This document shows, in pieces, positions 31,590 through 60,417 of a DNA stretch of 64,000 bases. The notes below the pieces were generated by a model. The model was given only the letters and a program-made list of their open reading frames with translations. It was not told the origin of the DNA and did not search any database. The stretch is from Streptomyces sp. NRRL S-1022 (GTDB lineage Bacteria > Actinomycetota > Actinomycetes > Streptomycetales > Streptomycetaceae). Position 1 is the stretch's first letter, and every line of letters starts with the position of its first letter. The position numbers and the translations under genes were made by a program. The stretch is from positions 248,001 through 312,000 of the forward strand of contig NZ_JOIU01000008.1 in NCBI RefSeq assembly GCF_000720135.1. Reading direction: 5' to 3'.

Positions 31590-32429
31590 TCAGCGCAGCT
31601 CGGCCACGTAACGGTCCGTGCCCGGCACCGTCGGGATGAACGGGGCCGCGAGTTCCACCCGGCCCAGACCGGACTCGGCCACCTGATCGTCCAGGCCCCG
31701 GAAGTGCTCCTCCCAGCACTCCCGGGGGTCCCGTTCCAGGAACCACAGCAGGGTCAGCCGGGTGTCCACGCCCTCGACCTGCTTGACGTAGGTCATGCGG
31801 TCGCCCGGCAGCGGGGTCGGCCGGAACACGGTGACCAGGGCGGACGGGGAGCCGGTGAGGCGGCGCGGGAGGTGGCGGTCGCGCAGCCACCGGAGCAGTT
31901 CGGCGCGCTGTCCGGGCGAGTCGGTGTCGACGACCTCCAGCACCAGGCCGGCGTAGGGGTGGTCGAGGGCGTGCACGTCCCGGGGCCCGGCGGCGCCGTC
32001 CCGGTACACCGTCGTCTCGTGGTCGTGGAAGGCGGTGAGGACGTGGGTGCGGTCGTGGTAGACGCGGGCGTCCCGGTTGAGGCGCCTGTTGATGGCGACC
32101 GTCCACTTCATGTGGTCGTCGTAGCGGCCGGCGGTGATCCAGTAGGTGCAGAGGTAGCAGCCGGCGGTGACCGGCCGGGCGACCGCCGACTTCTCCGGGT
32201 AGCGCAGGAACTGGAGCTCCCGGGTCGCCACCCAGCGGCGGCCCGCGTGCATCCAGGGCATGGCCATCGCGCCGGCGTAGTAGTGGTCGTCCTCGTACCA
32301 GCGGTTGTAGGCGTACTCGTGGCCGGGGTGCGGTTCGACCAGGGTGATCAGGGCGTGGCCGGGGCGGACGCCGTACGGGCCGACGGCGGCCAGTTCGGCG
32401 TACCGCTCGCTGCGGGTGTCGTCGCTCAT
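31590..32429 (-). CDS. Conserved protein of unknown function linked to the CTGAC-palindrome regulon
   Basis: ATG 32429, 279 residues, soluble. It contains two similar-looking halves, each with a strand-helix pattern as in dimeric alpha/beta-barrel (EthD/antibiotic-monooxygenase-like) proteins: HALITLVEPHPGHEYAYNRW with YEDDHYYAGAMAMPWMHAGR, and AGLVLEVVDTDSPGQRAELL. The fold reading is inference. It is divergent from the SDR gene, with the palindrome at 32461 between them, so both are probably part of the catabolic regulon. Confidence 0.6.
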   Translation of the reverse strand: MSDDTRSERYAELAAVGPYGVRPGHALITLVEPHPGHEYAYNRWYEDDHYYAGAMAMPWMHAGRRWVATRELQFLRYPEKSAVARPVTAGCYLCTYWITAGRYDDHMKWTVAINRRLNRDARVYHDRTHVLTAFHDHETTVYRDGAAGPRDVHALDHPYAGLVLEVVDTDSPGQRAELLRWLRDRHLPRRLTGSPSALVTVFRPTPLPGDRMTYVKQVEGVDTRLTLLWFLERDPRECWEEHFRGLDDQVAESGLGRVELAAPFIPTVPGTDRYVAELR

Positions 32430-32460
32430 GCGGTTCCCCTTTCCTGCGGTCGCCCATACT

Positions 32461-32475
32461 CTGACGCCCCGTCAG
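32461..32475. promoter_or_regulatory. Operator-like palindrome, site 1 (CTGACGCCCCGTCAG)
   Basis: Arms CTGAC and GTCAG separated by five bases, midway between divergent starts at 32429 and 32503. Same element as at 47186, 47250, 50212, 58022 and 58049. Confidence 0.7.
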
Positions 32476-32502
32476 GTGAAGCGCCATACCGAAGGAGGGG
32501 CC

Positions 32503-33291
32503 ATGTCCCTGCTCGCGGGCAAGACCGTCGTCGTCTCGGGCGTCGGGGCCGGGCTCGGTCACCAGGTCGCGGCGGCCGTCGTACGGGACGGCGGGAACGC
32601 CGTGCTCGGGGCGCGCACGGAGGCGAACCTGGCCCGGAGTGCGGCCGGGATCGATCCGGACGGCTCGCGCACGGCGTTCCGGGCGGCCGACATCACCGAC
32701 GAGGGGCAGTGCGAGGCGCTGGCGGGACTGGCGCGGGAGCGGTTCGGCGGGATCGACGCGGTGGTGCACGTGGCCGCCTGGGACTCGTACTTCGGCGGGC
32801 TGGAGGACGCGGACTTCGCGACCTGGCGGGCGGTCGTCGACGTGAACCTGCTGGGGACGCTGCGGATGACCCGGGCCTGTCTGCCGGGGCTGCGGGCGCG
32901 CGGGGGCGGGTCGGTGGTGTTCATCGGCACGCAGTCGGCCGTGGCCGCGCCCTCGCAGGTGAGGCAGGCCGCGTACGCCGCGTCGAAGGGGGCGCTGACC
33001 AGTGCGATGTACTCGCTGGCGCGGGAGCTGGGGCCGGACCGGATCCGGGTCAACTCGGTGCTGCCCGGGTGGATGTGGGGGCCGCCGGTGCAGGCGTACG
33101 TCCGGTTCACCGCGCACACGGAGGGGGTGCCGGAGGACGAGGTGCTGGCGCGCCTGACCGAGCGGACGGCGCTGCCGGAGCTGGCCACCGACGGGGATGT
33201 GGCGGACGCGGTGGTGTTCCTCGCCTCGGACCGGGCGCGGGCCATCACCGGGCAGTCGCTGCTGGTCAACGCGGGTGAGCTGATGCGTTGA
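32503..33291 (+). CDS. Short-chain dehydrogenase/reductase (SDR)
   Basis: ATG 32503 after GAAGGAGGGG; 262 residues. The nucleotide loop is VVVSGVGAGLGHQVAAAVVR (Ser in place of the usual Thr). NLLGTLRMTR, FIGTQSA (catalytic Ser) and the catalytic YAASK are present, with VNSVLPGWMWGP after it. A classical NAD(P)-dependent alcohol/ketone oxidoreductase with no substrate implied by sequence. Shares operator site 1 with the divergent hypothetical gene. Confidence 0.85.
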   Translation: MSLLAGKTVVVSGVGAGLGHQVAAAVVRDGGNAVLGARTEANLARSAAGIDPDGSRTAFRAADITDEGQCEALAGLARERFGGIDAVVHVAAWDSYFGGLEDADFATWRAVVDVNLLGTLRMTRACLPGLRARGGGSVVFIGTQSAVAAPSQVRQAAYAASKGALTSAMYSLARELGPDRIRVNSVLPGWMWGPPVQAYVRFTAHTEGVPEDEVLARLTERTALPELATDGDVADAVVFLASDRARAITGQSLLVNAGELMR

Positions 33292-34984: not shown

Positions 34985-34992
34985 CTCCCCCC

Positions 34993-42852: not shown

Positions 42853-44304
42853 TCACCCCGGCCACACGATCGACTGCACCTCGCTGTAGGCGTGCAGGGC
42901 GTACACCCCGACGTCCCGGCCGACCCCGCTCCTGCGGAACCCGCCGAACGGGGCCTCCATGTTGCGGCCGACCGTGTTGACGCCGACGCCCCCGGCCCGC
43001 AGCCGCCGCGCCACCCGGAAGGCCCGGGCGACGTCGCCGGACCAGACGTAGTCGACGAGCCCGTACTCGCAGTCGCCGGCGAGGGCCACCGCCTCGTCCT
43101 CCTCTTCGAACGGGATCACCGTCACCACGGGCCCGAAGATCTCCTCCCGGGCCACCCGCATGTCGTTCGTACCGTCGGCGAGCAGGGTGGGCGCGACGAA
43201 GAACCCCCGCTCCAGCGGCGGCCGGCCACCGCCCGTCACGACCACCGCGCCCTCCTTGCGCCCGAGTTCGACATACGACTCCACGCGCGCCCGGTGCTCG
43301 GCGGAGATCACCGGCCCCACCACCGTGTCCGGCTCCCGCGGGTCCCCCACCTTCAGCCGGCGCGCGTACCGGGCGAGTTGCTCGACCAGTCGCTCGTACA
43401 CCCCGCGCTGGGCCAGCACCCGGGTCGGTGCCGTGCAGATCTGCCCGCTGTAGAAGGAGAAGGTGGTGCCGATGCCCGCGACGGCCGAGTCCAGGTCGGC
43501 GTCGTCGAAGACGAGCGCGGCCCCCTTGCCGCCCAGCTCCATCAGCTGGCGTTTCATGTCCCGCCCGCACACCTCGGCGATGCGCCGCCCGACCGCCGTG
43601 GACCCGGTGAAGCTCACCATGTCGACGTCACCGGAGGCGACCACGGCCTCGCCCACCGCGACATCCCGCCCGGAGACGACGTTCACCACGCCCGGCGGCA
43701 CCCCGGCCGCCTGAAGCGCCTCGGCCATCCGGTACACGGACAGCGGATCCTGCGGGGCGGGCTTCACCACCACCGTGTTGCCCATGGCCAGCGCAGGCGC
43801 GATCTTGCCGGCCGGGTTGGCCCACGGATTGTTGTACGAGGTCACGCAGGTGACGACCCCGACGGGCTGCCGTACCGCCAGCGCCCCCAGCACGGCGGCC
43901 CGGCCCATCGGGCCGGCCTCGCTGACCTGCGGGGCGATCGCCCACTCGGCGGGCTCCACGCGCGCGTACCGGCGGAAGCGGGCCGCGGCCACCCCGACCT
44001 GCATCGCGCGGGCCGTCCCGGTGGTCGCGCCGGTCTCGGCCCGGGCCAGGTCGGCGTACGGCACCAGCCGCTCCCGGATGATCCCCGCGGCCCGCCCGAG
44101 CACCGCCGCCCGCTCCTCGGGCAGGGTCCGCGACCACGTCCCGAACGCCTCCCGGGCCGCCGCGCAGGCCGCCCGGGCCTGCTCCGGCGAGGCCTCCGGC
44201 GCCCAGCCGACGGTCTCCTCGGTGGCCGGGTCGGTCACCGGGTAGTGCCCGCCGTCCGGCGCCACCCACCGTCCGCCGACGAACAGCGGCTGCCCCTCGC
44301 TCAC
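42853..44304 (-). CDS. Aldehyde dehydrogenase
   Basis: GTG 44304 overlaps the upstream gene's TGA (GTGA); 483 residues. ALDH motifs are VTSYNNPWANPAGKIAPALA, VKPAPQDPLSVYRMAEAL, SFTGSTAVGRRIAE, MELGGKGA (general-base Glu) and FYSGQICTAPTRV (catalytic Cys), with EEIFGPVVTVIPFEEEDEA near the C-terminus. NAD(P)-dependent oxidation of an aldehyde. Last gene of the minus-strand operon starting at 47162, so it probably acts on an aldehyde released in this pathway. Confidence 0.9.
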   Translation of the reverse strand: MSEGQPLFVGGRWVAPDGGHYPVTDPATEETVGWAPEASPEQARAACAAAREAFGTWSRTLPEERAAVLGRAAGIIRERLVPYADLARAETGATTGTARAMQVGVAAARFRRYARVEPAEWAIAPQVSEAGPMGRAAVLGALAVRQPVGVVTCVTSYNNPWANPAGKIAPALAMGNTVVVKPAPQDPLSVYRMAEALQAAGVPPGVVNVVSGRDVAVGEAVVASGDVDMVSFTGSTAVGRRIAEVCGRDMKRQLMELGGKGAALVFDDADLDSAVAGIGTTFSFYSGQICTAPTRVLAQRGVYERLVEQLARYARRLKVGDPREPDTVVGPVISAEHRARVESYVELGRKEGAVVVTGGGRPPLERGFFVAPTLLADGTNDMRVAREEIFGPVVTVIPFEEEDEAVALAGDCEYGLVDYVWSGDVARAFRVARRLRAGGVGVNTVGRNMEAPFGGFRRSGVGRDVGVYALHAYSEVQSIVWPG

Positions 44305-46031
44305 CGGGTGCCCACCGTCCGCGTGTCCCGCCCGGACCGCAGCACCCTGCCCGGTACGGCCCCGGTCACCACGTCGTCGCGGATCGCCGCCACCCCGTTG
44401 ACCCACACGGCCCGCACCCCGAGCGCCCGGGAGTCCAGCCGGGGACTGTCCCCCGGCAGGTCGTGCACCAGCCGGGCCGGGCCGGCGTCGATCCGCTCCG
44501 GGTCGAACAGCACCAGGTCGGCGTGCCAGCCCTCCTGCACCCGTCCGCGCTCCCGCAGCCCGAACAGCCGCGCCGGGTCGTCGGTCAGCATCCGCACCGC
44601 CTGCTCCAGGCCGACCAGTTGCCGGCCGCGCAGACAGTCCCCGAGGAACCGGGTGGTGTACGGCGCCCCGCACATCCGGTCCAGGTGGGCGCCCGCGTCC
44701 GAGCCGCCGAGCAGGACGTCCTCGTGCTGCCAGGTCTCGGCGCGCAGCGCCCAGGAGGCCGGGTCGTTGTCGCTCGGCATGGGCCACAGCACGGTCCGCA
44801 GGCCGTCCTGGGCGCAGATCTCCACCAGGCAGGCGAACGGGTCCTGCCCGCGCTCCGCGGCGATGTCCCGCACGACCCGCCCGGTCAGGCCCCGGTTGGC
44901 CGCGCTGTAGGTGTCCCCGATGACGTACCGGCCGAAGTCCGTGAGCCGCCGGAAGACACCGGCCTCCTTCGACCGGGCCCGGCGCAGCAGTTCCTCCCGG
45001 ACGGCCGGGTCCCGCAGGCGGGCGATGCGCTCGGGCACGGGCAGCCCCAGGACCGGCCCCCAGCCCGGGATGAGGTTGAGGGCGCAGAAGGTGCCCAGCG
45101 ACATGTTCATCGGGGTCAGGATCGGCATGGTGAGCGCGACCACCCGGCCGCCGGCCTTCCGGGCCCGCTCGCTCGCGCTCAGCTGCCTCGGCACGCGGTC
45201 CGGCACGGCCGCGTCGATGGTGAGCACGTTCCAGTTCAGCGGCCGGCCGGCCGCCGCGCTCATCTCCACCAGCAGGTCGATCTCGTCGTCGTCGAACCGG
45301 TCCAGGCAGCCGGCGACGATCGCCTCGATCTGGGTGCCCTCGTGCTCGCCGACGGCGCGGGAGAGGGCCAGCAGCTCGGCCGGCCCCGCGTGCCGGGAGG
45401 CGACCGGCTGCCCGTCGCCGTCGGAGTGCGTACCGGACTGGGTGGTGGACAGCCCCCAGGCACCGGCGTCCATGGCCTCGTGCAACAGCCGGACCATCGC
45501 GTCGAGCTGTCCGGCCGTCGGCTGGCCGCCGATCGCCTCCGGTCCCATCACGTACCGCCGCAGCGCGCAGTGCCCCACCATGAACCCGGCGTTCACGGCG
45601 ATCCGCCCCTCCAGGGCGTCCAGGTACTCCCCGAAGGCGTGCCAGGTCCAGGGCGCCCCCTCCTCCAGCGCCACCAGGGACATCCCCTCCACCTTGGACA
45701 TCATCCGCCGGGTGTAGTCGGCGTCCTCGGGGCGGTCCGGGTGCAGCGGGGCCAGGGTGAACCCGCAGTTCCCGGCGGCCACGGTGGTCACCCCGTGGCC
45801 GAGGGAGGGCGTGGCGTACGGGTCCCAGAAGAGCTGGGCGTCGTAGTGGGTGTGCGGATCGACGAAGCCGGGGGTGAGGACCAGCCCGGTGGCGTCCTCG
45901 GTGGTGCGGGCCGCGTCCGTGATCCTTCCGACGGCGGCGATACGGCCGTCACGGATGCCGACGTCGGCGGTGCGGGCGGGCGCACCGGTGCCGTCCACGA
46001 CGGTGGCGCCCTTGACGAGGTGGTCCAGCAT
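44301..46031 (-). CDS. N-acyl-D-amino-acid deacylase-like amidohydrolase
   Basis: ATG 46031, 576 residues, 12 bases after the LLM gene. D-aminoacylase-type amidohydrolase: GFVDPHTHYDAQLFWDPYAT (HxH), FMVGHCALRRYVMG, then SDAGAHLDRMCGAPYTTRFL (catalytic Asp) and VNGVAAIRDDVVTGAVPGRV at the end. Such enzymes hydrolyse amide or cyclic amide bonds using zinc. In this operon the substrate may be an amide or lactam intermediate rather than a D-amino acid; this is inference. Confidence 0.8.
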   Translation of the reverse strand: MLDHLVKGATVVDGTGAPARTADVGIRDGRIAAVGRITDAARTTEDATGLVLTPGFVDPHTHYDAQLFWDPYATPSLGHGVTTVAAGNCGFTLAPLHPDRPEDADYTRRMMSKVEGMSLVALEEGAPWTWHAFGEYLDALEGRIAVNAGFMVGHCALRRYVMGPEAIGGQPTAGQLDAMVRLLHEAMDAGAWGLSTTQSGTHSDGDGQPVASRHAGPAELLALSRAVGEHEGTQIEAIVAGCLDRFDDDEIDLLVEMSAAAGRPLNWNVLTIDAAVPDRVPRQLSASERARKAGGRVVALTMPILTPMNMSLGTFCALNLIPGWGPVLGLPVPERIARLRDPAVREELLRRARSKEAGVFRRLTDFGRYVIGDTYSAANRGLTGRVVRDIAAERGQDPFACLVEICAQDGLRTVLWPMPSDNDPASWALRAETWQHEDVLLGGSDAGAHLDRMCGAPYTTRFLGDCLRGRQLVGLEQAVRMLTDDPARLFGLRERGRVQEGWHADLVLFDPERIDAGPARLVHDLPGDSPRLDSRALGVRAVWVNGVAAIRDDVVTGAVPGRVLRSGRDTRTVGTR

Positions 46032-47264: not shown

Positions 47265-48031
47265 ATGACGCCGACGCCCGCCAGCCAGCCGCCGTCGATC
47301 ACGAACGGCTGCCCGGTGATGTACGAGGAGTCGTCCGAGGTGAGGAAGAGGGCGAGCCGCGCCACCTCCTCCGGCCGGCCGATCCGGCCGAGCGGCACGA
47401 GCCTGCGGTACAGCTCGTCCAGGGCCCGGCTCATCTCCTCGGGGTCGGCGTCCGGGTCCAGCCGGGCCGGGTTCGCCATCGCGGTGTCGACGGCGCCCGG
47501 ACAGATGGCGTTGACCCGGATCCGCCGGCCCGCCAGCTCCAGCGCGGCCACCCGGGTCAGCCCGAGCACCGCGTGCTTGGTGGCGGCGTACGTGCCCACC
47601 GCCGCCATGCCGGTCAGGGCCGTGTAGGAGGCGGTGTTCACGATCGTGCCCCCGTCGGCCATCTCCGGTGCCACCGCCTTCATCCCCAGGAAGCAGCCGA
47701 CCTGGTTGACCTGCACGACCTGCATGAACTCGTCCAGCGGGGTGTCCACCAGGGCGTTGAAGCGCAGGATGCCCGCGTTGTTGACCAGCCCGTCGATCCG
47801 CCCGTACGCCTCCTTGACGGCCCCGACGGCCTCCCGCCAGCCGTCCTCCGTGCCCACGTCCAGGTGGACGTACAGCGCCCCTATCTCCTTGGCGAGCGCC
47901 TCCCCGCGGTCGTCCAGCACATCGGTGACGGCCACCCGCGCGCCCTCCGCCCGGAACAGCCGCGCCTCCTGCTCGCCCTGACCGCGCGCCGCCCCGGTGA
48001 CGAGGACGACCCGCCCGTCCAGCTTGCCCAT
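47261..48031 (-). CDS. Short-chain dehydrogenase/reductase (SDR)
   Basis: ATG 48031, 256 residues. The nucleotide motif VLVTGAARGQGEQEARLFRA is followed by LVNNAGILRFNALVDTPLDE (NNAG), IVNTASYTALTG (Ser) and the catalytic YAATK, then VNAICPGAVDTAM. Similar to steroid/alcohol dehydrogenases of actinobacterial catabolic clusters. Third gene of the minus-strand operon from 50190. Confidence 0.9.
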   Translation of the reverse strand: MGKLDGRVVLVTGAARGQGEQEARLFRAEGARVAVTDVLDDRGEALAKEIGALYVHLDVGTEDGWREAVGAVKEAYGRIDGLVNNAGILRFNALVDTPLDEFMQVVQVNQVGCFLGMKAVAPEMADGGTIVNTASYTALTGMAAVGTYAATKHAVLGLTRVAALELAGRRIRVNAICPGAVDTAMANPARLDPDADPEEMSRALDELYRRLVPLGRIGRPEEVARLALFLTSDDSSYITGQPFVIDGGWLAGVGVI

Positions 48032-48040: not shown

Positions 48041-48967
48041 TCAGTCCAGCCGGGGCGCGACCTCCGCCCCGAAACAGCGGATCTGCTCGATGAGTTCGGC
48101 CCGGCTCCGGCTGCGGAACCGCACCTGGATCTGGTCCACGCCCATCGCGCGGTACGCCCGCAGCGACGCGGCGATCTCCTCCGGTGCCCCGGCGAGCGTG
48201 CGCCGCCCCACGTCCCAGCCGGGCCGGCCGACGTACAGCGGTTCGGTGAGGGCGCCGACGGTGTACGGCCCGGCGAGCCCGGCCTCCTCGCGCAGCCGCC
48301 GGATCCGGGCGATCCGCCCCGGCAGCCGGTCGCGCGGGTCCCCCTGCGGGAGCCAGCCGTCGCCCTTCAGCGCGGCCCGGCGGACGGCGGCCGGCGAGGA
48401 GCCGCCGACCCAGAACGGCACGTGCGGCTGGGCGGGCCGGGGCCGCTGCCCCAGGCCGGCGAAGTCGTAGTGCTTTCCGTGGTGCTCGGGGAACTCGTCG
48501 GGCCCCAGGGCGGCGCGCAGCGCGTCCATCGCCTCGTCCAGCACGGCCCCGCGCCGCTCGAAGTCCACCCGGAGGGCCTCGAACTCCTCCCGTACGTGCC
48601 CGGCCCCGACCCCGAGGAGCAGCCGCCCGCCGGAGAGGTGGTCGAGGGTGGCGTACTGCTTGGCGGTCAGGAGCGGGTGCCGGAGCCCGACGACGGCCAC
48701 GTGGCTGAGCAGCCGCACCCGCTCGGTGACGGCGGCGAGGTGGGCGAGGGTGGCCACGGGGTCGTACCAGACGGTGCTCATGGCCGGGGCGAGGCGGCGC
48801 GGGACGGCCACGTGGTCGCAGCAGGCGACGTACGCGAACCCCGCCGCGTCGGCCGCCCGCGCCACGGCGACCAGGTCCTGCGGCCCGGCCGCGGTCTCCC
48901 ACGGCTCGGTGTAGAGGGTGCTCTGCGACTGCACGGGCAGCTGGATGCCGTACGCCAGGGCACTCAC
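48041..48967 (-). CDS. LLM-class F420-dependent oxidoreductase (TIGR03619-like)
   Basis: GTG 48967 overlaps the amidohydrolase stop (GTGA); 308 residues. YGIQLPVQSQSTLYTEPWET, AADAAGFAYVACCDHVAVPR, LLSHVAVVGLRHPLLTAKQY, TLDHLSGGRLLLGVGAGHVR and VGGSSPAAVRRAALKGDGWL fit the F420-using LLM subgroup. Probably catalyses a hydride transfer in the same pathway as the neighbouring amidohydrolase and SDR. Confidence 0.85.
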   Translation of the reverse strand: MSALAYGIQLPVQSQSTLYTEPWETAAGPQDLVAVARAADAAGFAYVACCDHVAVPRRLAPAMSTVWYDPVATLAHLAAVTERVRLLSHVAVVGLRHPLLTAKQYATLDHLSGGRLLLGVGAGHVREEFEALRVDFERRGAVLDEAMDALRAALGPDEFPEHHGKHYDFAGLGQRPRPAQPHVPFWVGGSSPAAVRRAALKGDGWLPQGDPRDRLPGRIARIRRLREEAGLAGPYTVGALTEPLYVGRPGWDVGRRTLAGAPEEIAASLRAYRAMGVDQIQVRFRSRSRAELIEQIRCFGAEVAPRLD

Positions 48968-50190
48968 CCCCGCCACAGCCCCTCCGGGGTGAGCCCGAGC
49001 AGCTCGATGGCGTTGCCCCGGACGATCCGCTCGACCACGCCGGCCGGCAGATGTCCCATCTGGGCCTCGCCGACCTCGCGGGACTTCGGCCAGGTCGAGT
49101 CGGAGTGCGGGTAGTCCGTCTCGTACAGGACGTTGCCGACCCCGATGGCGTCGAGGTTCCTCAGCCCGAACGCGTCGTCGAAGAAGCAGCCGAACACGTG
49201 CCCGGCGAACAGCTCGGACGGCGGCCGGCGCACCTTGTCGGCGACCCCGCCCCACCCGCGGTTCTCCTCCCAGACCACGTCGGCGCGCTCAAGGATGTAC
49301 GGGATCCAGCCGATCTGCCCCTCCGCGTACATGACCCGGAGGTTCGGGAAGCGCTCGAACTTGCCGCTCATCAGCCAGTCGACCATCGAGAAGCAGCAGT
49401 TGGCGAAGGTGATCGTGGACCCGACGGCGGGCGGCGCGTCGGCGGAGGTGGACGGCATCCGGCTCGACGAGCCGATGTGCATGGCGACGACGGTGCCGGT
49501 CTCGTCGCAGGCGGCGAGGAAGGGGTCCCAGTCGTCGGTGTGCACGGACGGCAGGCCCAGGTGCGGGGGTATCTCGGAGAAGGCGACGGCCCGGACGCCC
49601 CGTGCGGCGTTGCGCCGCACCTCCCGCGCGGCCAGTTCCGCGTCCCACAGGGGGACGAGCGTGAGCGGCACCAGCCGCCCGTGCGCCCCGGGCCCGCACC
49701 ACTCCTCCACCATCCAGTCGTTGTAGGCGCGCACGCACAGCAGGGCCAGCTCCTTGTCGGCGGCCTCGGTGAAGGTCTGCCCGCAGAAGCGGGGGAAGGT
49801 GGGGAAGCAGACGGCGGACTGCACGTGGTTGACGTCCATGTCGGCGAGCCGGGCGGGCACGTCGTACGATCCCGGCCGCATCTGCTCGTACGTGATCACC
49901 TCCAGCCTGACCTCGTCCCTGGCGCACCCGACGGCGGTGTCCAGGCGGGTGAGCGGCCGGTGCAGGTCCTCGTACACCCACCAGTCGCCGAGCGGCCCCT
50001 CGTCGGAGCCCGGGGTGCCCATGACGGGCTTGAACCGCCCGCCCAGGAAGCTCATCTCCTTCAGCGGGGCGCGCACGATCCGGGGGCCGGCCTCCCGGTA
50101 CTTCCTCGGCAGGCGGTCCTGCCACACGCCGGCGGGCTCGACGGTGTGGTCGTCGACGGAGATGATCAGCGGGAACTGTGTGGTCTCCAT
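48964..50190 (-). CDS. Amidohydrolase family 2 protein (ACMSD/LigJ-like TIM barrel)
   Basis: ATG 50190 (METTQFPLIIS); a GTG three codons upstream is possible. 408 residues. The opening ISVDDHTVEPAGVWQDRLPR is typical of the amidohydrolase_2 group common in actinobacterial aromatic/steroid clusters. VVAMHIGSSSRMPST supplies a central histidine and LYETDYPHSDSTWPKSREV the catalytic Asp-His region. Members act as hydrolases or decarboxylases. First gene of an operon with the LLM and SDR genes; palindrome site 4 lies 22 bases upstream. Confidence 0.85.
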   Translation of the reverse strand: METTQFPLIISVDDHTVEPAGVWQDRLPRKYREAGPRIVRAPLKEMSFLGGRFKPVMGTPGSDEGPLGDWWVYEDLHRPLTRLDTAVGCARDEVRLEVITYEQMRPGSYDVPARLADMDVNHVQSAVCFPTFPRFCGQTFTEAADKELALLCVRAYNDWMVEEWCGPGAHGRLVPLTLVPLWDAELAAREVRRNAARGVRAVAFSEIPPHLGLPSVHTDDWDPFLAACDETGTVVAMHIGSSSRMPSTSADAPPAVGSTITFANCCFSMVDWLMSGKFERFPNLRVMYAEGQIGWIPYILERADVVWEENRGWGGVADKVRRPPSELFAGHVFGCFFDDAFGLRNLDAIGVGNVLYETDYPHSDSTWPKSREVGEAQMGHLPAGVVERIVRGNAIELLGLTPEGLWRG

Positions 50191-50211
50191 AGCGTGCACC
50201 GTAGCGCCGAT

Positions 50212-50226
50212 CTGACGGTCCGTCAG
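50212..50226. promoter_or_regulatory. Operator-like palindrome, site 4 (CTGACGGTCCGTCAG)
   Basis: The best copy, with seven-base arms CTGACGG and CCGTCAG, 22 bases upstream of the amidohydrolase ATG and in the intergenic region shared with afsR (start 50381). Confidence 0.8.
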
Positions 50227-50380
50227 CTATCGGTGTCCGGCGGCCGGCATGCGGAGAGGTTGTGAGGGCTTCGTGCACCCAGGTGCGGCCCTCTGTGATC
50301 GGCGTCTCCCACGGCTGACGCAACCGCCCGTTACAAGGCAAACTGACGGGGTTGTTCGTGATGCCGAGGGGGGCGAACGC

Positions 50381-53344
50381 ATGGACGGTGGGCCGCGAGT
50401 ACCCGAGCAGCGGCGTGCCGGGTCCGGTCCCGTCGCGGAGCCCGGCCCGCTGCGCTTCGGCGTGCTCGGACCGGTGCGGGCCTGGCGCGGCGAGGAGGCG
50501 CTCCCCACGGGCTCCCCGCAGCAGCGCGCCCTGCTGGCCGCACTGCTGCTGCGGGAGGGCCGTACGGCCACGGCGGCCGAGCTGATCGACGCGCTGTGGG
50601 GATCCGAACCGCCGTCCCAGGCCCTCGCGGCGGTCCGCACCTACGCCTCCCGGCTCCGCAAGATCCTCGACCCCGGCGTCCTGGCCAGCGAGTCCGGCGG
50701 CTACGCCGTCCGCGGCTTGGGCGAGGGCGCCCTGGACCTGGCGGTCGCGCAGGACCTGGCGGCCGAGGCGGAGAAGTCCCGCGGGACCGGTGACCTGGGC
50801 CGGGCCCGTGGCCTGCTGAACCAGGCCCTGGCGCGCTGGGACGGCGAGACCCTGGCCGGCGTCCCCGGCCCCTACGCCGAGGCCCAGCGGGCCCGCCTGG
50901 AGGAGTGGCGCCTCGGCCTGCTGGAGACCCGCCTGGACCTGGATCTGGAACAGGGCGGCCACGCCGAGGCGGTCTCCGAGCTGACCGCCCTGACGGCGGC
51001 GCACCCCCTCCGGGAACGGCTCCGCGAACTGCTGATGCTGGCCCTGTACCGCAGCGGCCGCCAGGCGGAGGCCCTGGCGGTGTACGCCGACACGCGCCGC
51101 CTGCTCGCCGAGGAACTGGGCGTGGACCCGCGCCCCGGCCTGAGCGAGCTCCAGCAGCGCATCCTCCAGGCGGACCCGGCCCTGGCGGAACCCCCGGCCC
51201 CGGCGACGGAGCCCACCGCGAACCCGGTCCGCCCGGCACAGCTGCCCGCCTCCGTCCCCGACTTCACCGGCCGCTCCTCCTTCGTGTCGGAACTGAGCGA
51301 GGTGCTGTCCTCGGCGTCCGAGGCGGAGGGCCGGGTGATGGCGGTCTCGGCCCTGGCCGGCATCGGCGGCGTGGGCAAGACCACCCTGGCGGTGCACGTC
51401 GCCCACCGGGCGCGGGGCGCGTTCCCGGACGGCCAGCTGTACGTCGACCTCCAGGGCACCGGCCCCCGCCCGGCGGAACCGGAGACCGTCCTGGGCTCCT
51501 TCCTGCGAGCCCTGGGCACGCCGGACACGGCCATCCCCGACTCCCTGGAGGAACGCTCGGCCCTCTACCGCTCGGTGCTGGACGGCCGCCGGGTCCTGCT
51601 CCTGCTGGACAACGCGAAGGACGCGGCCCAGGTACGGCCGCTGCTGCCCGGCACGGAGGGCTGCGCCGCCCTCGTCACCTCCCGCGTCCGCATGCTCGAC
51701 CTCGCCGGCGCCCACCTGGTCGACCTCGACGTCATGTCCCCGGACGAGGCCCTGTCCCTGTTCACCAGGATCGTGGGCGAGGAACGGGTGGCGGCGGAAC
51801 GCGAGGCGGCCCTGGACGTGGTGGCCGCCTGCGGCTTCCTCCCCCTGGCCATCCGCATCGCGGCGTCCCGCCTGGCGGCGCGCCGCACCTGGACGGTCTC
51901 GGTCCTGGCGGCCAAGCTGGCCGACGAACGCCGCCGCCTGGACGAACTCCAGGCCGGCGACCTGGCGGTCAAGGCCACCTTCGAACTGGGCTACGGCCAG
52001 CTGGAACCCGCCCAGGCCCGCGCCTTCCGCCTCCTCGGCCTGGCCGACGGCCCCGACATCTCCCTGGCCGCCGCGGCAGCGGTCCTGGACCTCCCCCCGG
52101 AGGACACCGAGGACCTGCTGGAGTCCCTGGTCGACACGTCGCTGCTCGAATCGGCGGCCCCCGGCCGCTACCGCTTCCACGACCTGGTCCGCCTGTACGC
52201 CCGAGCCTGCGCGGAGAGGGACGAGTGGCCGCCGAGCGACCGGGAGGCGGCGATGTCGCGGTTGCTGGACTTCTATCTGGCTACGGCGGCGCGGGTTTAT
52301 GCCATTGAGCGACCGGGTGACCGGACTGTCGCCCACTTGACGCCGACGTCGTACAAGGGCCTTTCCTTCACCGCACGGCCCGAGGCGCTCGACTGGCTCT
52401 TCGCGGAGGCACAGTGCCTGTTGGCTTGTGCGAGTCAGCAAAGCACCGGAAGCGGGCTCGGCCGAGCCGTCGATCTGTTGTGGGCCGCCAAGGACCTGGC
52501 GGAATCGGGAGCGAACGCCAAGCAGTACGAAATCGCGGCCAGGACTCTGCGGGACGCCGCGCAGAAGGACGCCGACGTACGTGCCGAAAGCCGGGCCAGA
52601 ACGGCCCTTTCCAACGTCCACCTGGCAGCCGGACGGTACTCCGAGGCTGACGAGGAGGCTCGGCACGCCGTCGCGCTCGCCTCCGCGGCGGGAGATGCGG
52701 CCCCCATCAGCTGGGCCTCCACCGACCGGGGGATCATCGCGCTCAGTCAGGGCCGCTACGAAGAAGCCGAGAAGTTCCTCACCACCGCCAAGAACGGTTA
52801 CCGAGCCGACGGCAACCGGCCCGGTGAGGCCAACTCGCTATGCAACCTGTCGCGGCTCTACGAGCGCATGAACCGCACCTCCGAGGCCGTGAGCCTGGCC
52901 CAGCAGGGTGTCGACATCTTTCAGCAACTCGGCATGACCCTGCGCCTCGCCAACGGCCGTTATGCGCTGGGGGTCGCACTGATCCGGGCCGGCCGGCATG
53001 CCGAGGGACTGGAACAACTGTCGGAAGCGCTGGTCATGTTCGGCACCAACAGGCAGCGGCTGTGGGAAGGAACGACGCACTTCCGTATCGCACAGTTGCA
53101 TCTGACTGCCGACCGCCCGGCTCAGGCGGCGCAGCACGCCGAACAGGCTCTGGCCATCGGTTTCATCGGCGGTGATCTGATTCGCGGAGGCGTGTTGAGC
53201 ACGCTCGGCAAGAGCCTTCACGCTCTGGGCCAGTCGGACAGGGCACGGACCTGCTGGCAGGAGGCCCTCCTCCTACTGGAACAATCGGGGGCGCCGGAGG
53301 CCGCCGAGGTGCGAGGACTGCTGGCGCCGCTGGAGGCTCCCTGA
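50381..53344 (+). CDS. afsR: AfsR: SARP/BTAD-NB-ARC-TPR transcriptional regulator
   Basis: ATG 50381 after GAGGGGGG; 987 residues, close to the 993 I recall for S. coelicolor AfsR. Order: winged-helix OmpR-type DNA-binding domain (about 25-110), BTAD domain (to about 270), NB-ARC ATPase with P-loop GIGGVGKTT around K333 and LLLLDNAKD Walker B, then TPR repeats to the C-terminus (GRYSEADEEARHAVALA, GRYEEAEKFLTTAKNGY). AfsR is phosphorylated by AfsK and activates afsS, raising antibiotic production. Here afsS lies 206 bases downstream, supporting the assignment. The last third is less GC-biased than the first. Confidence 0.92.
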   Translation: MDGGPRVPEQRRAGSGPVAEPGPLRFGVLGPVRAWRGEEALPTGSPQQRALLAALLLREGRTATAAELIDALWGSEPPSQALAAVRTYASRLRKILDPGVLASESGGYAVRGLGEGALDLAVAQDLAAEAEKSRGTGDLGRARGLLNQALARWDGETLAGVPGPYAEAQRARLEEWRLGLLETRLDLDLEQGGHAEAVSELTALTAAHPLRERLRELLMLALYRSGRQAEALAVYADTRRLLAEELGVDPRPGLSELQQRILQADPALAEPPAPATEPTANPVRPAQLPASVPDFTGRSSFVSELSEVLSSASEAEGRVMAVSALAGIGGVGKTTLAVHVAHRARGAFPDGQLYVDLQGTGPRPAEPETVLGSFLRALGTPDTAIPDSLEERSALYRSVLDGRRVLLLLDNAKDAAQVRPLLPGTEGCAALVTSRVRMLDLAGAHLVDLDVMSPDEALSLFTRIVGEERVAAEREAALDVVAACGFLPLAIRIAASRLAARRTWTVSVLAAKLADERRRLDELQAGDLAVKATFELGYGQLEPAQARAFRLLGLADGPDISLAAAAAVLDLPPEDTEDLLESLVDTSLLESAAPGRYRFHDLVRLYARACAERDEWPPSDREAAMSRLLDFYLATAARVYAIERPGDRTVAHLTPTSYKGLSFTARPEALDWLFAEAQCLLACASQQSTGSGLGRAVDLLWAAKDLAESGANAKQYEIAARTLRDAAQKDADVRAESRARTALSNVHLAAGRYSEADEEARHAVALASAAGDAAPISWASTDRGIIALSQGRYEEAEKFLTTAKNGYRADGNRPGEANSLCNLSRLYERMNRTSEAVSLAQQGVDIFQQLGMTLRLANGRYALGVALIRAGRHAEGLEQLSEALVMFGTNRQRLWEGTTHFRIAQLHLTADRPAQAAQHAEQALAIGFIGGDLIRGGVLSTLGKSLHALGQSDRARTCWQEALLLLEQSGAPEAAEVRGLLAPLEAP

Positions 53345-56408: not shown

Positions 56409-57992
56409 TCATCCCCTCCCCCTCAGCTCCCCCTTCAGTACCTTTCCGCCGGCGTTGCGCGGAAGGGACCGTACGAACTCCACCGACCTCGGCACCTTGT
56501 AGTTCGCCATCTCGCGGCGGGACCAGGTGATGAGGTCGTCCGAGGTGAGGTGGGAGTGGGGGCGGCGGACGACGTAGGCCTTGGCCACCTCGCCCAGGCG
56601 GGGGTCGGGGACGCCGACGACCGCCGCGTCCAGGACGTCGGGGTGGGTGAGGAGGAGCTGCTCTATCTCCGCCGGGTACGCGTTGAAGCCGCCGACGATG
56701 AACATGTCCTTCAGGCGGTCCGTGATGCGCAGGTTGCCCGCCGCGTCCAGGACGCCCACGTCGCCCGTGCGCAGCCAGCCGTCCGGGGTGATCGCCTCGG
56801 AGGTGGCCCCGGGGTCGTCGTAGTAGCCCCGCATGACGTTGAAGCCGCGGACCAGCACCTCCCCGGGGGTGCCGGTGGGGCCGGCCACTCTCACCTCCGT
56901 GCCGGGGATCGCGCGGCCGGACGTGGAGGCGATCAGTGCCGGGTCGTCGCCGCGGCGGCACATCGTGACGATGCCGGCCGCCTCCGAGAGTCCGTAGGCG
57001 GTCAGGACGGTGCCGACGCCGAGTTCCTCGCGCAGGCGTTCCACCAGACGGAGGGGGACCACCGCGGCGCCCGTCACCACCAGGCGGAGGGTCGACAGGT
57101 CGTGGGCGTCCCGGGCGGGGTGGTCCAGGAGCTGCTGGTGCAGGGTGGGCGGGCCCGGGAGGACGGAGATCCGTTCCGCCGCGATGTTGGCCAGGGCCGT
57201 GTCCACGTTGAACACCGGCTGCGGGATCATCGTGGCCCCTCGCATCAGGCAGGCGAGCACCCCGGCCTTGTAGCCGAAGGTGTGGAAGAAGGGGTTGACG
57301 ATCAGGTAGCGGTCGGACGGCCGGAGACCGGCCAGGTCCGCCCAGGTCGCGTAGGCGCGCAGGGTCTGGCCGTGGGTGATCATCGCGCCCTTGGGGCGGC
57401 CCGTCGTACCGGATGTGAAGACGATGTCCGAGAGGGCCGAGCCGGTCACTTCACGGGCGCGGGCCCGTACGTCCCCCGGCGGCACGCCGTCGCCCGCCGC
57501 CAGGAAGTCCTTCCACGTCTCGAAGTCGGGCGGGGCGTCGTCCGAGAGGACCACCACCCGGTCGAGGGCGGGCAGGGCGGGGAGGGGTCGCCTCGCGGCC
57601 GGTGTTCCGGCGCCGGCCGCTCGCCGCAGCGACGCCACGTAGGAGGTGCCCAGGAACGTTCCCGTCACGAACAGCAGCCTCGCCCCGCTGCGGCGCAGCA
57701 CGTCCGCCGCCTCCGCGCCCTTGAAGCGGGTGTTGAGCGGTACCAGGACCGCGCCCGCGGACACCGCGCCGAGGGACGCGGTGATCCAGTCCAGGGTGTT
57801 GGGGGCCCAGACGGCCACCCGGTCGCCCGCCTCCACCCCGCGGGCCAGGCAGGCCGCGGCCGCCCGCTCGATCCGGGCGCCCAGTTCGGCGTAGGTGATC
57901 CGCGTACGGCCGTCGGCCACGGCCTCGGTGTCCGCGAACCGTCCGGCCGCCCACCGCACCAGTTCCGGGATGGTCTCCCACGACGCCGTCAC
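56409..57992 (-). CDS. Acyl-CoA synthetase (AMP-dependent, FadD-type)
   Basis: ATG 57992, 527 residues. Adenylate-forming motifs: IVFTSGTTGRPKGAMITHGQ (P-loop-like A3), TAYGLSEAAGIVTM (A5), WLRTGDVGVLDAAGNLRITD (A7) and RLKDMFIVGGFNAYPAEIEQ (A8), with the C-terminal lysine in NAGGKVLKGEL. It activates a carboxylic acid as an acyl-CoA through an acyl-AMP. Divergent from the Ltp-DUF35-crotonase operon with two palindromes between, so it probably loads the substrate of that pathway (FadD3/FadD17-like steroid or isoprenoid acids are one option). Confidence 0.9.
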   Translation of the reverse strand: MTASWETIPELVRWAAGRFADTEAVADGRTRITYAELGARIERAAAACLARGVEAGDRVAVWAPNTLDWITASLGAVSAGAVLVPLNTRFKGAEAADVLRRSGARLLFVTGTFLGTSYVASLRRAAGAGTPAARRPLPALPALDRVVVLSDDAPPDFETWKDFLAAGDGVPPGDVRARAREVTGSALSDIVFTSGTTGRPKGAMITHGQTLRAYATWADLAGLRPSDRYLIVNPFFHTFGYKAGVLACLMRGATMIPQPVFNVDTALANIAAERISVLPGPPTLHQQLLDHPARDAHDLSTLRLVVTGAAVVPLRLVERLREELGVGTVLTAYGLSEAAGIVTMCRRGDDPALIASTSGRAIPGTEVRVAGPTGTPGEVLVRGFNVMRGYYDDPGATSEAITPDGWLRTGDVGVLDAAGNLRITDRLKDMFIVGGFNAYPAEIEQLLLTHPDVLDAAVVGVPDPRLGEVAKAYVVRRPHSHLTSDDLITWSRREMANYKVPRSVEFVRSLPRNAGGKVLKGELRGRG

Positions 57993-58021: not shown

Positions 58022-58036
58022 CTGACTGACCGTCAG
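58022..58036. promoter_or_regulatory. Operator-like palindrome, site 5 (CTGACTGACCGTCAG)
   Basis: Perfect CTGAC/GTCAG arms, 30 bases upstream of the CoA ligase start at 57992. Confidence 0.75.
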
Positions 58037-58048
58037 ATTAGCGGTAAT

Positions 58049-58063
58049 CTGACGGCCTGTCAG
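58049..58063. promoter_or_regulatory. Operator-like palindrome, site 6 (CTGACGGCCTGTCAG)
   Basis: Perfect CTGAC/GTCAG arms, directly before the AGGAGAGGGGG ribosome-binding site of the Ltp gene at 58079. Centre-to-centre distance to site 5 is 27 bases, so each divergent start has its own site. Confidence 0.75.
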
Positions 58064-58078: not shown

Positions 58079-59233
58079 ATGGCAGGAGCAGGGCTCAAGG
58101 ACGCCACCGCCATCGTCGGGATCGGACAGACCGCGTTCGCCCGGCACTTGGCCGAGGACGAGCGGACGCTCGCCTGCCGGGCCGTGCTCGCCGCGCTCGA
58201 CGACGCGGGCATCGCACCCGGCGAGGTGGACGCGCTCGCCTCCTACACGATGGAGGCGACCGACGAGGTGGAGCTGGCGAAGGCCGTCGGGTTCGGGGAC
58301 CTGACCTTCTTCGGCAAGGTCGGGTACGGGGGCGGCGGTTCCTGTGCGACCGTCGCGCACCTCGCCGCCGCCATCGCCTCCGGGCAGGCCACGGTGGGGG
58401 TCGCGTGGCGGTCGAGGAAGCGGGGCAGCGGGCCCCGGCCGTGGACCGACACGGCCGTGCAGCTGCCGACACCGGGACAGTGGACCCGGCCCTTCGGGCT
58501 GCTCCGGCCCGTCGACGAGATCGCCATGCTGGCCCGGCGGTACATGCACGAGTACGGCGTGACGCGGGACCACCTCTTCAACGTCGCGCTGGCCTGCCGC
58601 AACCGGGCCAACCAGAACCCGGCCGCCGTGATGTACGAACGGCCGCTGACCCGCGAGATGTACATGACCTCCCGCTGGATCAGCGAGCCGCTGTGCCTGT
58701 ACGACAACTGCCTGGAGACGGACGGCGCGCTCGCCTGTGTGGTGGTGGGCAGCGAACGCGCCCGGGACTGCAGGCAGCGGCCCGTGTACGTCCACGCCGC
58801 CGCGCAGGGCCTGCCCGCCCAGCACCACGGCATGGTCAACTACTGGAACGACGACCCGCTGACCGGCCCCGCCTGGACCGCCGCCCGGCACCTGTGGAAG
58901 CACGCCGACCTCACGCCGGAGGACGTCGACGTGGCGCAGATCTACGACGCGTTCACCGCGCTGGTCCCGCTGTCCCTGGAGGGCTACGGCTTCTGCGCGC
59001 GCGGCGAGGGCGGCGCCTTCACCGAGCAGGGCGCCCTGGAGACCGGCGGGCGGCTGCCGGTCAACACCGGCGGCGGCGGGCTGAGCGAGGCCTACGTGCA
59101 CGGCTTCAACCTCGTCAACGAGGGCGTCAAGCAGCTTCGCGGGACCAGTACCGCCCAGGTTCCGGGCGCCGCGGCCTGCCTGGTCACGGCCGGTGAAGGC
59201 GTCCCCACCTCCGCCCTCCTCCTCAGGAGCTGA
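58079..59233 (+). CDS. Thiolase-fold lipid-transfer protein, Ltp2-like (probable acyl-CoA retro-aldolase)
   Basis: ATG 58079 after AGGAG; 384 residues. Thiolase-superfamily fold (IVGIGQTAFARHLAEDERTL, VGYGGGGSCATVAHLAAAIA). The thiolase signature GHPxGA is absent; the equivalent loop is LPVNTGGGGLSEAYVHGFN (Y339), and another conserved Tyr lies in VAQIYDAFTALVP (Y289). In Ltp2-type aldolases two tyrosines at matching places replace thiolase chemistry and cleave a C-C bond in steroid side-chain CoA esters, together with a DUF35 partner, which is the next gene here. The substrate is inferred only by analogy. Confidence 0.8.
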   Translation: MAGAGLKDATAIVGIGQTAFARHLAEDERTLACRAVLAALDDAGIAPGEVDALASYTMEATDEVELAKAVGFGDLTFFGKVGYGGGGSCATVAHLAAAIASGQATVGVAWRSRKRGSGPRPWTDTAVQLPTPGQWTRPFGLLRPVDEIAMLARRYMHEYGVTRDHLFNVALACRNRANQNPAAVMYERPLTREMYMTSRWISEPLCLYDNCLETDGALACVVVGSERARDCRQRPVYVHAAAQGLPAQHHGMVNYWNDDPLTGPAWTAARHLWKHADLTPEDVDVAQIYDAFTALVPLSLEGYGFCARGEGGAFTEQGALETGGRLPVNTGGGGLSEAYVHGFNLVNEGVKQLRGTSTAQVPGAAACLVTAGEGVPTSALLLRS

Positions 59234-59239
59234 TCCGTC

Positions 59240-59647
59240 ATGCTCGATCCCGTCACCGACAACGACGGCGCGCCCTTCTGGGAGTACGCGGCCCGCGGCG
59301 AGCTGCGGGTCCAGGCGTGCGGCGACTGCGGGGAACTCCGCTTCCCGCCCCGGCCCTGCTGCCCGCACTGCCAGTCCTTCGCGGCCGGGTGGCGGGCGGT
59401 GTCGGGGCGCGGGCGGGTGTGGTCGTACGTCGTGCCGCATCCGCCGCTGCTGCCCGGTTACGCGGAGCAGGCGCCGTACAACGTGGTCGTCGTGGAGCTG
59501 GAGGAGGCCCCGCGGATACGGCTCGTGGGGAACGTGGTCGCGCACGCCGGGGCGCCGCTGAACTCCCTCGACCCGGCCCGGCTGAGGATCGGCGCCCGGG
59601 TGCGGGCGGTCTTCTCCGGCGGGCTGCCGCAGTGGGTGCCGGCGTGA
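59240..59647 (+). CDS. Zn-ribbon/OB-fold DUF35 protein (Ltp partner)
   Basis: ATG 59240, six bases after the Ltp gene; 135 residues. The rubredoxin-like zinc ribbon has C27-GD-C30 and C40/C41-PH-C44, followed by an OB-fold (GRGRVWSYVVPHPPLLPGY, VVVELEEAPRIRLVGNVV). DUF35 proteins dock on thiolase-fold enzymes and bind acyl-CoA; in ChsH2-Ltp2 they are required for retro-aldol cleavage. The stop overlaps the crotonase start. Confidence 0.9.
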   Translation: MLDPVTDNDGAPFWEYAARGELRVQACGDCGELRFPPRPCCPHCQSFAAGWRAVSGRGRVWSYVVPHPPLLPGYAEQAPYNVVVVELEEAPRIRLVGNVVAHAGAPLNSLDPARLRIGARVRAVFSGGLPQWVPA

Positions 59648-60417
59648 ACACCGTCCGCCTCGACGTGGGCGAGGGCGCCGGCGTCGCCGTGGTCACCCTG
59701 GACCGGCCCGGGCGGCTCAACGCCGTCGACCTCGCCATGGTCCGGGAACTGTCGGACCTCTGGCGGGAGTTGCGGTTCGACGACTCCGTGCGGGCCGTCG
59801 TGCTCACCGGGAGCGGGGAGCGGGCGTTCTGTACGGGCATCGACCGGGACGCCGTCGTACCGCAGCCCTCGTCGCCGTACATGCAGGACGATCCGCTGCT
59901 GGGCATCGGGCCGAAGGCGAACGGCCTGTGGAAGCCGGTGATCGCCGCGGTGTGCGGGATGGCGTGCGGCGGGGCCTTCTACCTGCTGGGGGAGAGCGAG
60001 TTCGTCGTCGCGGACCCGACGGCCGTGTTCTTCGACCCGCACACCACGTACGGCATGGTCAGCGCCTACGAGTCGGTGCTGATGGCCGAGCGGATGCCGT
60101 TCGGGGAGGCCGCGCGGATGATGCTGATGGGGACGGCCGAGCGGATGTCGGCGCGGCGGGCGCACGAGATCGGGCTGGTGTCCGAGATCGCGGAGGAGGG
60201 GCGGGCGGTGGAGGCCGCCGTGCGCTGCGCCCAGGTCGTCGCCGGGTATCCGCCTCAGGCGGTGCAGGGGACGGTGCGGGCGCTGTGGGCGGCGAAGGAG
60301 GCGGCGCGGGCGCAGGCGTTCGCCCAGGCGCCGCACCTGATCACGCTGGGCAGTCTGCCGGCCGGGCGGCAGGCGGAGCTGTTCGCCGCCCGCCGCCGGG
60401 AGTTCCGGGTGCGCTAG
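59644..60417 (+). CDS. Enoyl-CoA hydratase/isomerase (crotonase) family protein
   Basis: GTG 59644 in a GTGA overlap with the DUF35 gene; 257 residues. Crotonase motifs: VVTLDRPGRLNAVDLAMVRE, VVLTGSGERAFCTGIDRDAV (CoA/oxyanion loop), KPVIAAVCGMACGGAFYLLG (second oxyanion Gly) and MMLMGTAERMSARRAHEIGL. Probably hydrates an enoyl-CoA to give the beta-hydroxyacyl-CoA needed for the following aldol cleavage. Last gene of the operon. Confidence 0.88.
   Translation: MNTVRLDVGEGAGVAVVTLDRPGRLNAVDLAMVRELSDLWRELRFDDSVRAVVLTGSGERAFCTGIDRDAVVPQPSSPYMQDDPLLGIGPKANGLWKPVIAAVCGMACGGAFYLLGESEFVVADPTAVFFDPHTTYGMVSAYESVLMAERMPFGEAARMMLMGTAERMSARRAHEIGLVSEIAEEGRAVEAAVRCAQVVAGYPPQAVQGTVRALWAAKEAARAQAFAQAPHLITLGSLPAGRQAELFAARRREFRVR

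Follow-up and report, generated by a model that had tools for sequence, protein, structure and literature searches.

A conserved palindromic operator of a dispersed catabolic regulon in Streptomyces and its candidate TetR-type regulator, g053

The DNA analysed here (the window: 64,000 bases, positions 248001-312000 of contig C8 in the 8,915,148-base, 235-contig genome of Streptomyces sp. NRRL S-1022) carries six copies of a palindrome, ATCTGACGGnCCGTCAGAT in its full 19-bp form and also written CTGACGGnCCGTCAG, close upstream of genes for catabolic enzymes. They are part of a real, large and conserved regulon with a strong candidate for its regulator, the TetR-type gene g053. We consider it quite probable that the palindromes are operators of this dispersed regulon, that they lie in core promoters which are repressed by occlusion, and that the regulator is, most likely, g053. 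What the sequences establish are the sites themselves, their enrichment, their conservation in the promoters of orthologues, the -35/-10 arrangement seen in some of these, the co-distribution with g053 and the presence of palindromes upstream of many g053 orthologues. The gene network is apparently undescribed: a literature search found no description of it by title or abstract, most subscription papers being outside its coverage, and a search for the literal motif gave nothing relevant among the matches listed, the string in the S. coelicolor paper PMC5539140 being in a primer.

Operator sites in the window and the genome

A reading of the window made earlier from its letters alone, the sequence-only reading, had listed six palindromes; all are present, the one given at 47186 beginning in fact at 47187. 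One (50212) is perfect and five have a single mismatch, and these six are the sole matches with at most one mismatch in the window. With three mismatches allowed, the window is unremarkable (18 matches, against a shuffle mean of 12.2, with 8 of 100 shuffles reaching 18), so that the signal resides in the near-perfect sites. All six lie in promoter regions, as had been claimed, 15-87 bp upstream of a start codon, and the catabolic character of the targets was likewise borne out: they are short-chain dehydrogenase (SDR), luciferase-like oxidoreductase (LLM), amidohydrolase, aldehyde dehydrogenase, CoA ligase and lipid-transfer genes (Table 1). The judgement that the palindrome is an operator of TetR kind also finds support.

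Comparison with background frequency across the genome, one of two checks that had been proposed for the claim, places the motif far above it. The 15-mer with at most one mismatch occurs 32 times, against 3 in a reversed control, the core CTGACN5GTCAG 31 times against 1, and the 19-bp form with up to three mismatches 28 times against 0; 12 of these 28 fall within 57 kb (binomial 1.3e-19), and both perfect 15-mers of the genome are in the C8 cluster. At two mismatches the 15-mer count (209, against 100 in the control) is mostly background. Chance origin of the sites is ruled out by the reversed and shuffled controls. Examination of individual loci covered 22 of the 31 core matches of this genome and a minority of the 209, of which the first 50 were listed.

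Further sites were scored with a weight matrix made from 14 sites of the C8 cluster; because of this the scores within the cluster are partly circular and those elsewhere are not. The run of sites continues beyond the window, amounting to 15 from C8:280461 to C8:337622 (89622 in window-based coordinates), and the nine additional ones lie 4-69 bp from the nearest start. These 15 are the sole matches of at least 18 bits in C8:248001-350000 (102 kb), in agreement with the earlier remark that neighbouring genes have none. Outside these 102 kb, in the other stretches of this genome that were examined, 11 of 14 matches of at least 18 bits are upstream of genes, giving 26 promoter sites in all over nine contigs (C8 and eight others). 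The earlier idea of a single regulon is thus retained, but its extent, six sites over 28 kb, was too narrow: there are 15 sites over 57 kb and 11 promoter sites elsewhere among those examined. The 26 sites yield the logo ATCTGACGGnCCGTCAGAT, in which the CTGAC/GTCAG positions hardly vary; the logo is symmetric by construction, since sites were counted on both strands. Five gaps carry paired sites 16-63 bp apart. Gene starts are those of a home-made caller and may be off; that of the gene behind C12:9060, 297 bp from the site, was probably called too late.

Conservation and promoter geometry

The second proposed check, conservation upstream of orthologues, gave an equally clear outcome. The best 80 of 588 relatives of g041 were kept and represent 80 named Streptomyces loci (S. 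tricolor and S. cinerochromogenes at 94%). These loci contain 370 sites of at least 18 bits, of which 369 precede relatives of g038-g042, g046 or g047 by no more than 260 bp; the same loci reversed contain none in 1,573,462 bases. Counted gene by gene at 16 bits, among orthologues with at least 260 bp of upstream sequence, a site precedes g041 in 80/80, g038 in 71/71, g047 in 62/62 and g046 in 61/62, and part of the orthologues of g042 (35/78), g039 (21/72) and g040 (20/78). Operon-internal genes have none of their own (g036 0/61, g037 0/68, g048 0/47, g049 0/51), nor do flanking genes (g034 0/12, g035 0/33, g043 0/2, g044 0/9, g050 0/5, g051 0/2). The sites counted for g042 are at a median distance of 193 bp, and control of this gene by the operator is uncertain. 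In an alignment of the 80 g041 promoters the conserved blocks are the palindrome, in both its halves, and the -10.

Within the class, the 19-bp form with at most two mismatches was found in 77 of 394 genomes: 32 of the 40 of the genus (13 sites in this genome, the maximum being 17) and 45 of the 354 outside it. Among these 45, there are 4-11 sites in 8 of 12 genomes of family f14, 2-6 in 7 of 8 g64 genomes of f18 and 9-58 in 5 of 5 f13 genomes, nearly all the others of the 45 having single matches. The f14 and f18 sites are upstream of relatives of g036, g037, g038, g040, g041, g070, g072, g076 and g077, and of relatives of the lipid-transfer operon on C12. In the f13 genome G085, 58 palindromes at up to two mismatches stand against none in the control, and most of the 15 copies in loci L066-L080 are inside called, unrelated genes, some of them parA-, pheT- or helicase-like by their N-termini. 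Among the 50 of the 58 sites that were listed, no TetR gene was found within 300 bp upstream.

The position of the operator relative to promoter elements was assessed in 431 oriented site-gene pairs from the 80 Streptomyces loci, at distances of up to 120 bp. TANNNT follows the half-site CTGACN at a spacing of 17 bp in 173 of the 431 and of 18 bp in 17, other spacers giving 0-5 and background being 0.3% per position. By gene, TANNNT at spacer 16-18 is seen at g041 in 79/79, g047 in 62/62, g046 in 33/61 and g039 in 16/21. In this genome the pairs with this geometry are g041, whose promoter reads CTGACG-17-TACGGT-7-ATG and whose transcript is possibly leaderless, and those of the divergent g046/g047 gap, whose two operators each provide the -35 of one promoter. 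From such spacing it is likely that at g041, g046 and g047 the half-site CTGACN is the -35 hexamer; since it would double as -35, with the -10 17 bp further on, binding there should block RNA polymerase. A dimer on the operator would cover the -35 and the spacer at g046/g047 and g041 and so exclude polymerase by occlusion; at other promoters the operator sits near the start codon. We infer binding by g053, with repression rather than activation as its effect. Release from the operator would most likely be brought about, by analogy with KstR2 and the FadR-type TetR proteins, by a CoA thioester or a similar hydrophobic intermediate of the pathway. This arrangement of operator on promoter offers a clear mechanism of repression that is open to test.

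The candidate regulator

The sequence-only reading held that no TetR gene is encoded here. That is true within the window, but one begins at C8:312561; it went unseen because its start is 561 bp past the window end. This gene, g053, matches PF00440 (27 bits, cut-off 24) and PF19352 TetR_C_38 (242 bits); an initial start at L016:573 was replaced, the ATG at 561 being the conserved one. Across 52 homologues the helix-turn-helix residues A54 T55 F56 Y57 Y59 F60 do not vary. In 30 Streptomyces (L231-L260) the roughly 60 bp that lead up to the g053 start hardly differ, being far better conserved than the sequence before them, and the transcript is possibly leaderless.

A search for g053 in the 394 genomes, with up to seven candidates scored in each, returned strong matches in all 40 genomes of the genus and in 24 of 354 outside it (42-58% identity). 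Outside the genus, sites are present in 23 of the 24 genomes with an orthologue versus 22 of the 330 without, the latter mostly single, and at least four sites in 18/24 versus 1/330. Fisher tests of co-occurrence (1.2e-22, or 3.4e-18 without family f13) ignore shared ancestry; the pattern recurs in f12, f13, f14, two f18 genera and one f4 genome. Among 21 of the 24 distant orthologues (all except G012, G035 and G069), 14 have a site of at least 14 bits of their own, either at the start or up to 260 bp before it, including 7/7 in f14; by chance, such sites arise once in 1.57 Mb reversed and twice in 1.28 Mb shuffled. In the f14 genome G036, regulon-type genes surround a gene for a 48-49% identical TetR protein, whose start carries a 20.4-bit site. 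Judged from these distributions, g053 is most likely the regulator of the operator, its best candidate, and is probably self-controlled.

Several observations weigh against this conclusion, or against the generality of the mechanism. Seven of the 21 distant orthologues have no 14-bit site of their own, and 16 of 122 other genes of the same loci do have one, some of these looking like regulon genes. The site in the Streptomyces g053 leader is weak (13.3-14.1 bits in 29 of 30) and straddles the ATG, and the leaders, being nearly identical, count as about one event. G150 (68% complete), G152 and G353 have at least two sites and no detected g053 orthologue. Conversely, 8 of the 40 Streptomyces (G089, G133, G153, G234, G243, G277, G285 and G309) keep g053, at 68-89% identity, without a site at two mismatches or fewer; of the 35 three-mismatch sites in these site-poor genomes 15 were examined, 12 lying inside called genes and none having a regulon relative directly downstream. 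In these genomes g053 thus has another job or is a leftover, and a second target or role is likely. In our own genome, 3 of the 14 outlying matches of at least 18 bits are not in promoters (C4:238852 and C7:126030 are inside genes; the other is C39:47449). As to geometry, the -35 arrangement is absent at g038 (0/70) and g040 (0/19) and is shown by only 3 of 24 own-cluster site-gene pairs within 150 bp; it rests on about four independent promoters, since the aligned rows are orthologues.

That g053 persists in the eight site-poor genomes is also what would be expected if the operator is real and its regulator is encoded elsewhere, g053 being a conserved neighbour whose distribution merely coincides. 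Other TetR genes are not lacking: one near a site at C12:59175, local ones in the f18 stretches L191, L198, L202, L203, L204 and L209, and at least 127 TetR matches in this genome with 150 of 330 candidates scored. Yet among 16 TetR-like open reading frames (ORFs) in 40 f14 and f18 stretches, only that of L216 pairs with a TetR gene near sites in our genome (E<1e-15), and that gene is g053; the local f18 genes were rejected as the regulator, having no counterpart among our two TetR genes near sites. With g053 tracking the sites across several families and the palindrome upstream of 14 of 21 distant orthologues, we regard a regulator elsewhere as an unlikely, though serious, alternative. A different reading would dispense with an operator altogether: CTGACN with TANNNT at a distance of 17 bp makes a good promoter, and the palindrome might be a -35 half that is symmetric by chance and is recognized by a particular sigma factor. 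Conservation of both halves in the g041 alignment speaks against this, as do the paired sites in five gaps and the many sites off the -35 spacing, at g038, at g040 and in 21 of the 24 own pairs, and we give it very little weight. A dispersed palindromic repeat without regulatory role would suit the 58 copies in G085, with most of the 15 located ones inside unrelated genes; in Streptomyces, against this, all but one of the 370 sites precede the same set of orthologues with nothing in the reversed control, which makes a repeat practically negligible as an explanation.

The AlphaFold2 (AF2) model of P0001, a protein 99% identical to g053, shows the all-helical TetR fold with a predicted local distance difference test score (pLDDT) of 91.2, and the first 23 of the 50 Foldseek matches listed are EthR entries. 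On the basis of this model, EthR of Mycobacterium tuberculosis appears to be the nearest solved structure (template modelling score about 0.75-0.79 by query length, 18-20% identity), although the sequence relation is weak (30 bits with the single sequence, 35 bits with a profile). EthR controls a single neighbouring monooxygenase gene. The FadR-type TetR proteins of Thermus, Bacillus and Sulfolobus have the TetR fold in common with g053, and the listed structures hold acyl-CoA, but their structural similarity to the g053 model is lower. They exert acyl-CoA-responsive control of CoA-dependent degradation and use other operators.

Pathway and comparison with sterol regulators

The targets, with CYP125-, ChsH- and FadD3-type genes among them, suggest sterol-like catabolism, and four genomes of another family add cholesterol oxidase to the list. 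Both g046 and g047 score above the cut-offs of their families, FadD3 and lipid-transfer protein. Downstream of C39:16001 are genes for a ChsH1/ChsH2-like fusion protein, a MaoC protein and a lipid-transfer protein (557.8 bits to 6ok1_A, which we take to be Ltp2), the ChsH-type matches scoring 160.9 bits to ChsH2 6ok1_B and 114 bits to ChsH1 4w78. C7:200646 (19.2 bits) lies between a gene for a CYP125-like P450 (499.6 bits to CYP125 5dqn) and a thiolase gene. Steroid side-chain genes of CYP125, ChsH1/ChsH2 and Ltp2 type are thus present. The product of g076 resembles Tcur3483, and in f18 all five long ORFs scanned behind a site are PF09129-type cholesterol oxidases (two loci in G111, one each in G347, G324 and G198).

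The ring-cleavage side tells against a sterol pathway of the usual form. KshA (KshA_C, PF19298) has no match in this genome and occurs in 8 of 40 genomes of the genus, two of these marginally; it matches in 8/8 g64 genomes of f18. At 30 KshA loci, those of f18 among them, no site reached 16 bits (one scored 15.2), so that KshA was rejected as a target. Canonical ring catabolism in this strain is unlikely, and a CoA-dependent pathway that degrades a sterol- or isoprenoid-like compound stands at about even odds. Somewhat more tentatively, g053 may act as master repressor of a regulon that is undescribed and independent of KstR, serves the catabolism of sterol- or isoprenoid-like compounds and is common to Streptomyces and several other actinobacterial families; it would govern cholesterol oxidase in f18 and, in Streptomyces, CYP125-, ChsH- and FadD3-type genes without KshA, in a partial or different route. 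Ligand and substrate are here inferred. If so, most Streptomyces carry a controlled network of lipid degradation, and the regulator is kept even where the network has been lost. In a published survey, as far as its accessible part goes, 55 of the 57 Streptomyces genomes covered yielded no steroid pathway (PMC4810484); despite this, the CYP125-, ChsH- and FadD3-type genes here have one operator in common.

The KstR regulon is known to hold cyp125-, fadA5- and chsH/ltp2-type genes. In the consulted parts of the KstR and KstR2 papers, to which the following statements are confined, KstR2 of Mycobacterium and Rhodococcus acts on 15 genes through three sites of the operator AnCAAGnnCTTGnT and responds to HIP-CoA (PMC3068626, PMC5380842), and KstR recognizes the motif TnnAACnnGTTnnA (PMC1995591), its operator being TAGAACnnGTTCTA. 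The system here resembles that of KstR2 in its presumed TetR repressor, in a short palindrome that stands, mostly 22-82 bp from the starts, in the gaps of divergent promoters, and in targets such as FadD3, acyl-CoA dehydrogenases and SDR; it differs in its 26 promoter sites over nine contigs, in the LLM, amidohydrolase, ChsH2 and lipid-transfer genes among its targets and in its operator. It resembles KstR as a large TetR regulon for lipid or sterol degradation with operators overlapping promoter elements (PMC1995591), and again differs in operator, that of KstR being unlike ours. A possible KstR orthologue in S. coelicolor is SCO2319, at 32% (PMC1995591).

Such overlap in target types, namely the FadD3-family ligase, the CYP125-like P450, the ChsH1/ChsH2- and lipid-transfer-type aldolase genes and the f18 cholesterol oxidase, could mean that the mycobacterial KstR or KstR2 regulon is seen here in a Streptomyces form. 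Neither the KstR2 operator AnCAAGnnCTTGnT nor the KstR motif TnnAACnnGTTnnA (from the same parts of PMC3068626 and PMC1995591), however, is matched anywhere in the 102 kb that surround the regulon or in 10 further target loci of this genome. In the Protein Data Bank (PDB), searches with the g053 sequence and with its profile match EthR and further TetR chains, and no chain named KstR or KstR2 is among the 23 g053 matches (E<=0.01) or the 19 profile matches (E<=1e-4), several being named only 'TetR family'. Because the operator test fails, the regulon is likened to those of KstR and KstR2 in its working and is not identified with either; we put the chance that it is one of them as very slight indeed. 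The KstR motif has one match in f14, in locus L215, where a related P450/thiolase pair has a 16.9-bit site together with a perfect KstR-type box.

With g053 as the probable regulator, the LLM oxidoreductase, amidohydrolase, SDR, CoA ligase and lipid-transfer annotations of dozens of Streptomyces genes come together in a single pathway that can be tested and has a named candidate switch; this switch might be used as a sensor, and its deletion could show what the substrate is.

Table 1. Sites and genes of the regulon. Coordinates are those of the window unless a contig is named; those above 64000 continue the same numbering beyond its end.
Feature	Coordinates	Strand	Description
Operator CTGACGCCCCGTCAG	32461..32475		divergent g026/g027 gap; 21.6 bits; starts of the two genes 31 and 27 bp away
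Operator CTGACGATCCGTCAG	47187..47201		24 bp upstream of g038; 30.8 bits
Operator CCGACGGACCGTCAG	47250..47264		87 bp upstream of g038; overlaps final 4 bases of g039; 27.4 bits
Operator CTGACGGTCCGTCAG, perfect	50212..50226		21 bp upstream of g041; minus-strand CTGACG is likely g041 -35
Operator CTGACTGACCGTCAG	58022..58036		31.5 bits; CTGACT is likely g047 -35
Operator CTGACGGCCTGTCAG	58049..58063		25.2 bits; minus-strand CTGACA is likely g046 -35; also covers expected g047 start point, predicted near 58057
Likely g041 -10, TACGGT	50198..50203	-	17 bp after half-site; 7 bp before ATG
Likely g046 -10, TAATCT	58035..58040	-	17 bp after half-site
Likely g047 -10, TAATCT	58045..58050	+	17 bp after half-site
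g026	31590..32429	-	279 aa; no Pfam or NCBIfam match; target
g027	32503..33291	+	short-chain dehydrogenase; target
g036	42853..44304	-	aldehyde dehydrogenase
g037	44301..46031	-	amidohydrolase (PF07969)
g038	46044..47162	-	luciferase-like (LLM) oxidoreductase; heads presumed operon g038-g037-g036
g039	47261..48031	-	short-chain dehydrogenase
g040	48041..48976	-	F420-type LLM oxidoreductase (TIGR03619, 236 bits, cut-off 167)
g041	48964..50190	-	amidohydrolase_2 (PF04909); heads presumed operon g041-g040-g039
g042	50249..53344	+	SARP/AfsR-like regulator (BTAD, NB-ARC, TPR); divergent from g041; start 50249 or 50474
g046	56409..57992	-	acyl-CoA ligase; NCBIfam FadD3 family (802 bits, cut-off 657)
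g047	58079..59233	+	lipid-transfer protein, thiolase fold (NCBIfam PRK07855, 573 bits, cut-off 469)
g048	59240..59647	+	ChsH2/DUF35-type zinc-ribbon OB-fold protein
g049	59632..60417	+	enoyl-CoA hydratase
g053	C8:312561-313208 (L016:561-1208)		between two target-gene blocks; TetR_N and PF19352 C-terminal domain
Site	68590		acyl-CoA dehydrogenase + F420-type reductase / lipid-transfer thiolase
Site	71980		DoxX-like + ChsH2-like / FMO-type monooxygenase
Sites	73351, 73375		ADP-forming acyl-CoA ligase + enoyl-CoA hydratase
Site	76458		flavin reductase
Sites	84054, 84070		SDR + acyl-CoA dehydrogenase + alcohol dehydrogenase / cyclase-type hydrolase
Sites	89595, 89622		amidohydrolase_2 + two acyl-CoA dehydrogenases / CoA ligase
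Promoter sites elsewhere	C7:200646, C12:9060, C12:55651, C13:88809, C15:22265, C15:22918, C39:16001, C4:142209, C4:129024, C19:160644, C34:42004		

Some lesser observations concern individual loci. The cyp125/thiolase gap holds a near match to the KstR-type box in this genome (TAGAACGCGTACTA, L024:3809-3822) and the perfect form in the f14 locus (TAAAACACGTTCTA, L215:13218-13231); two sterol-type regulators may meet on this promoter in double control. The product of the gene after the SARP gene (window 53995-54834) has a weak match to the MTES_1575 restriction-endonuclease-like domain (E 1.3e-4, below cut-off). The sites C15:22265 (29.3 bits) and C15:22918 (24.8 bits), at L033:2766 and 3419, precede two genes whose products look secreted; the larger product has no Pfam or NCBIfam match.

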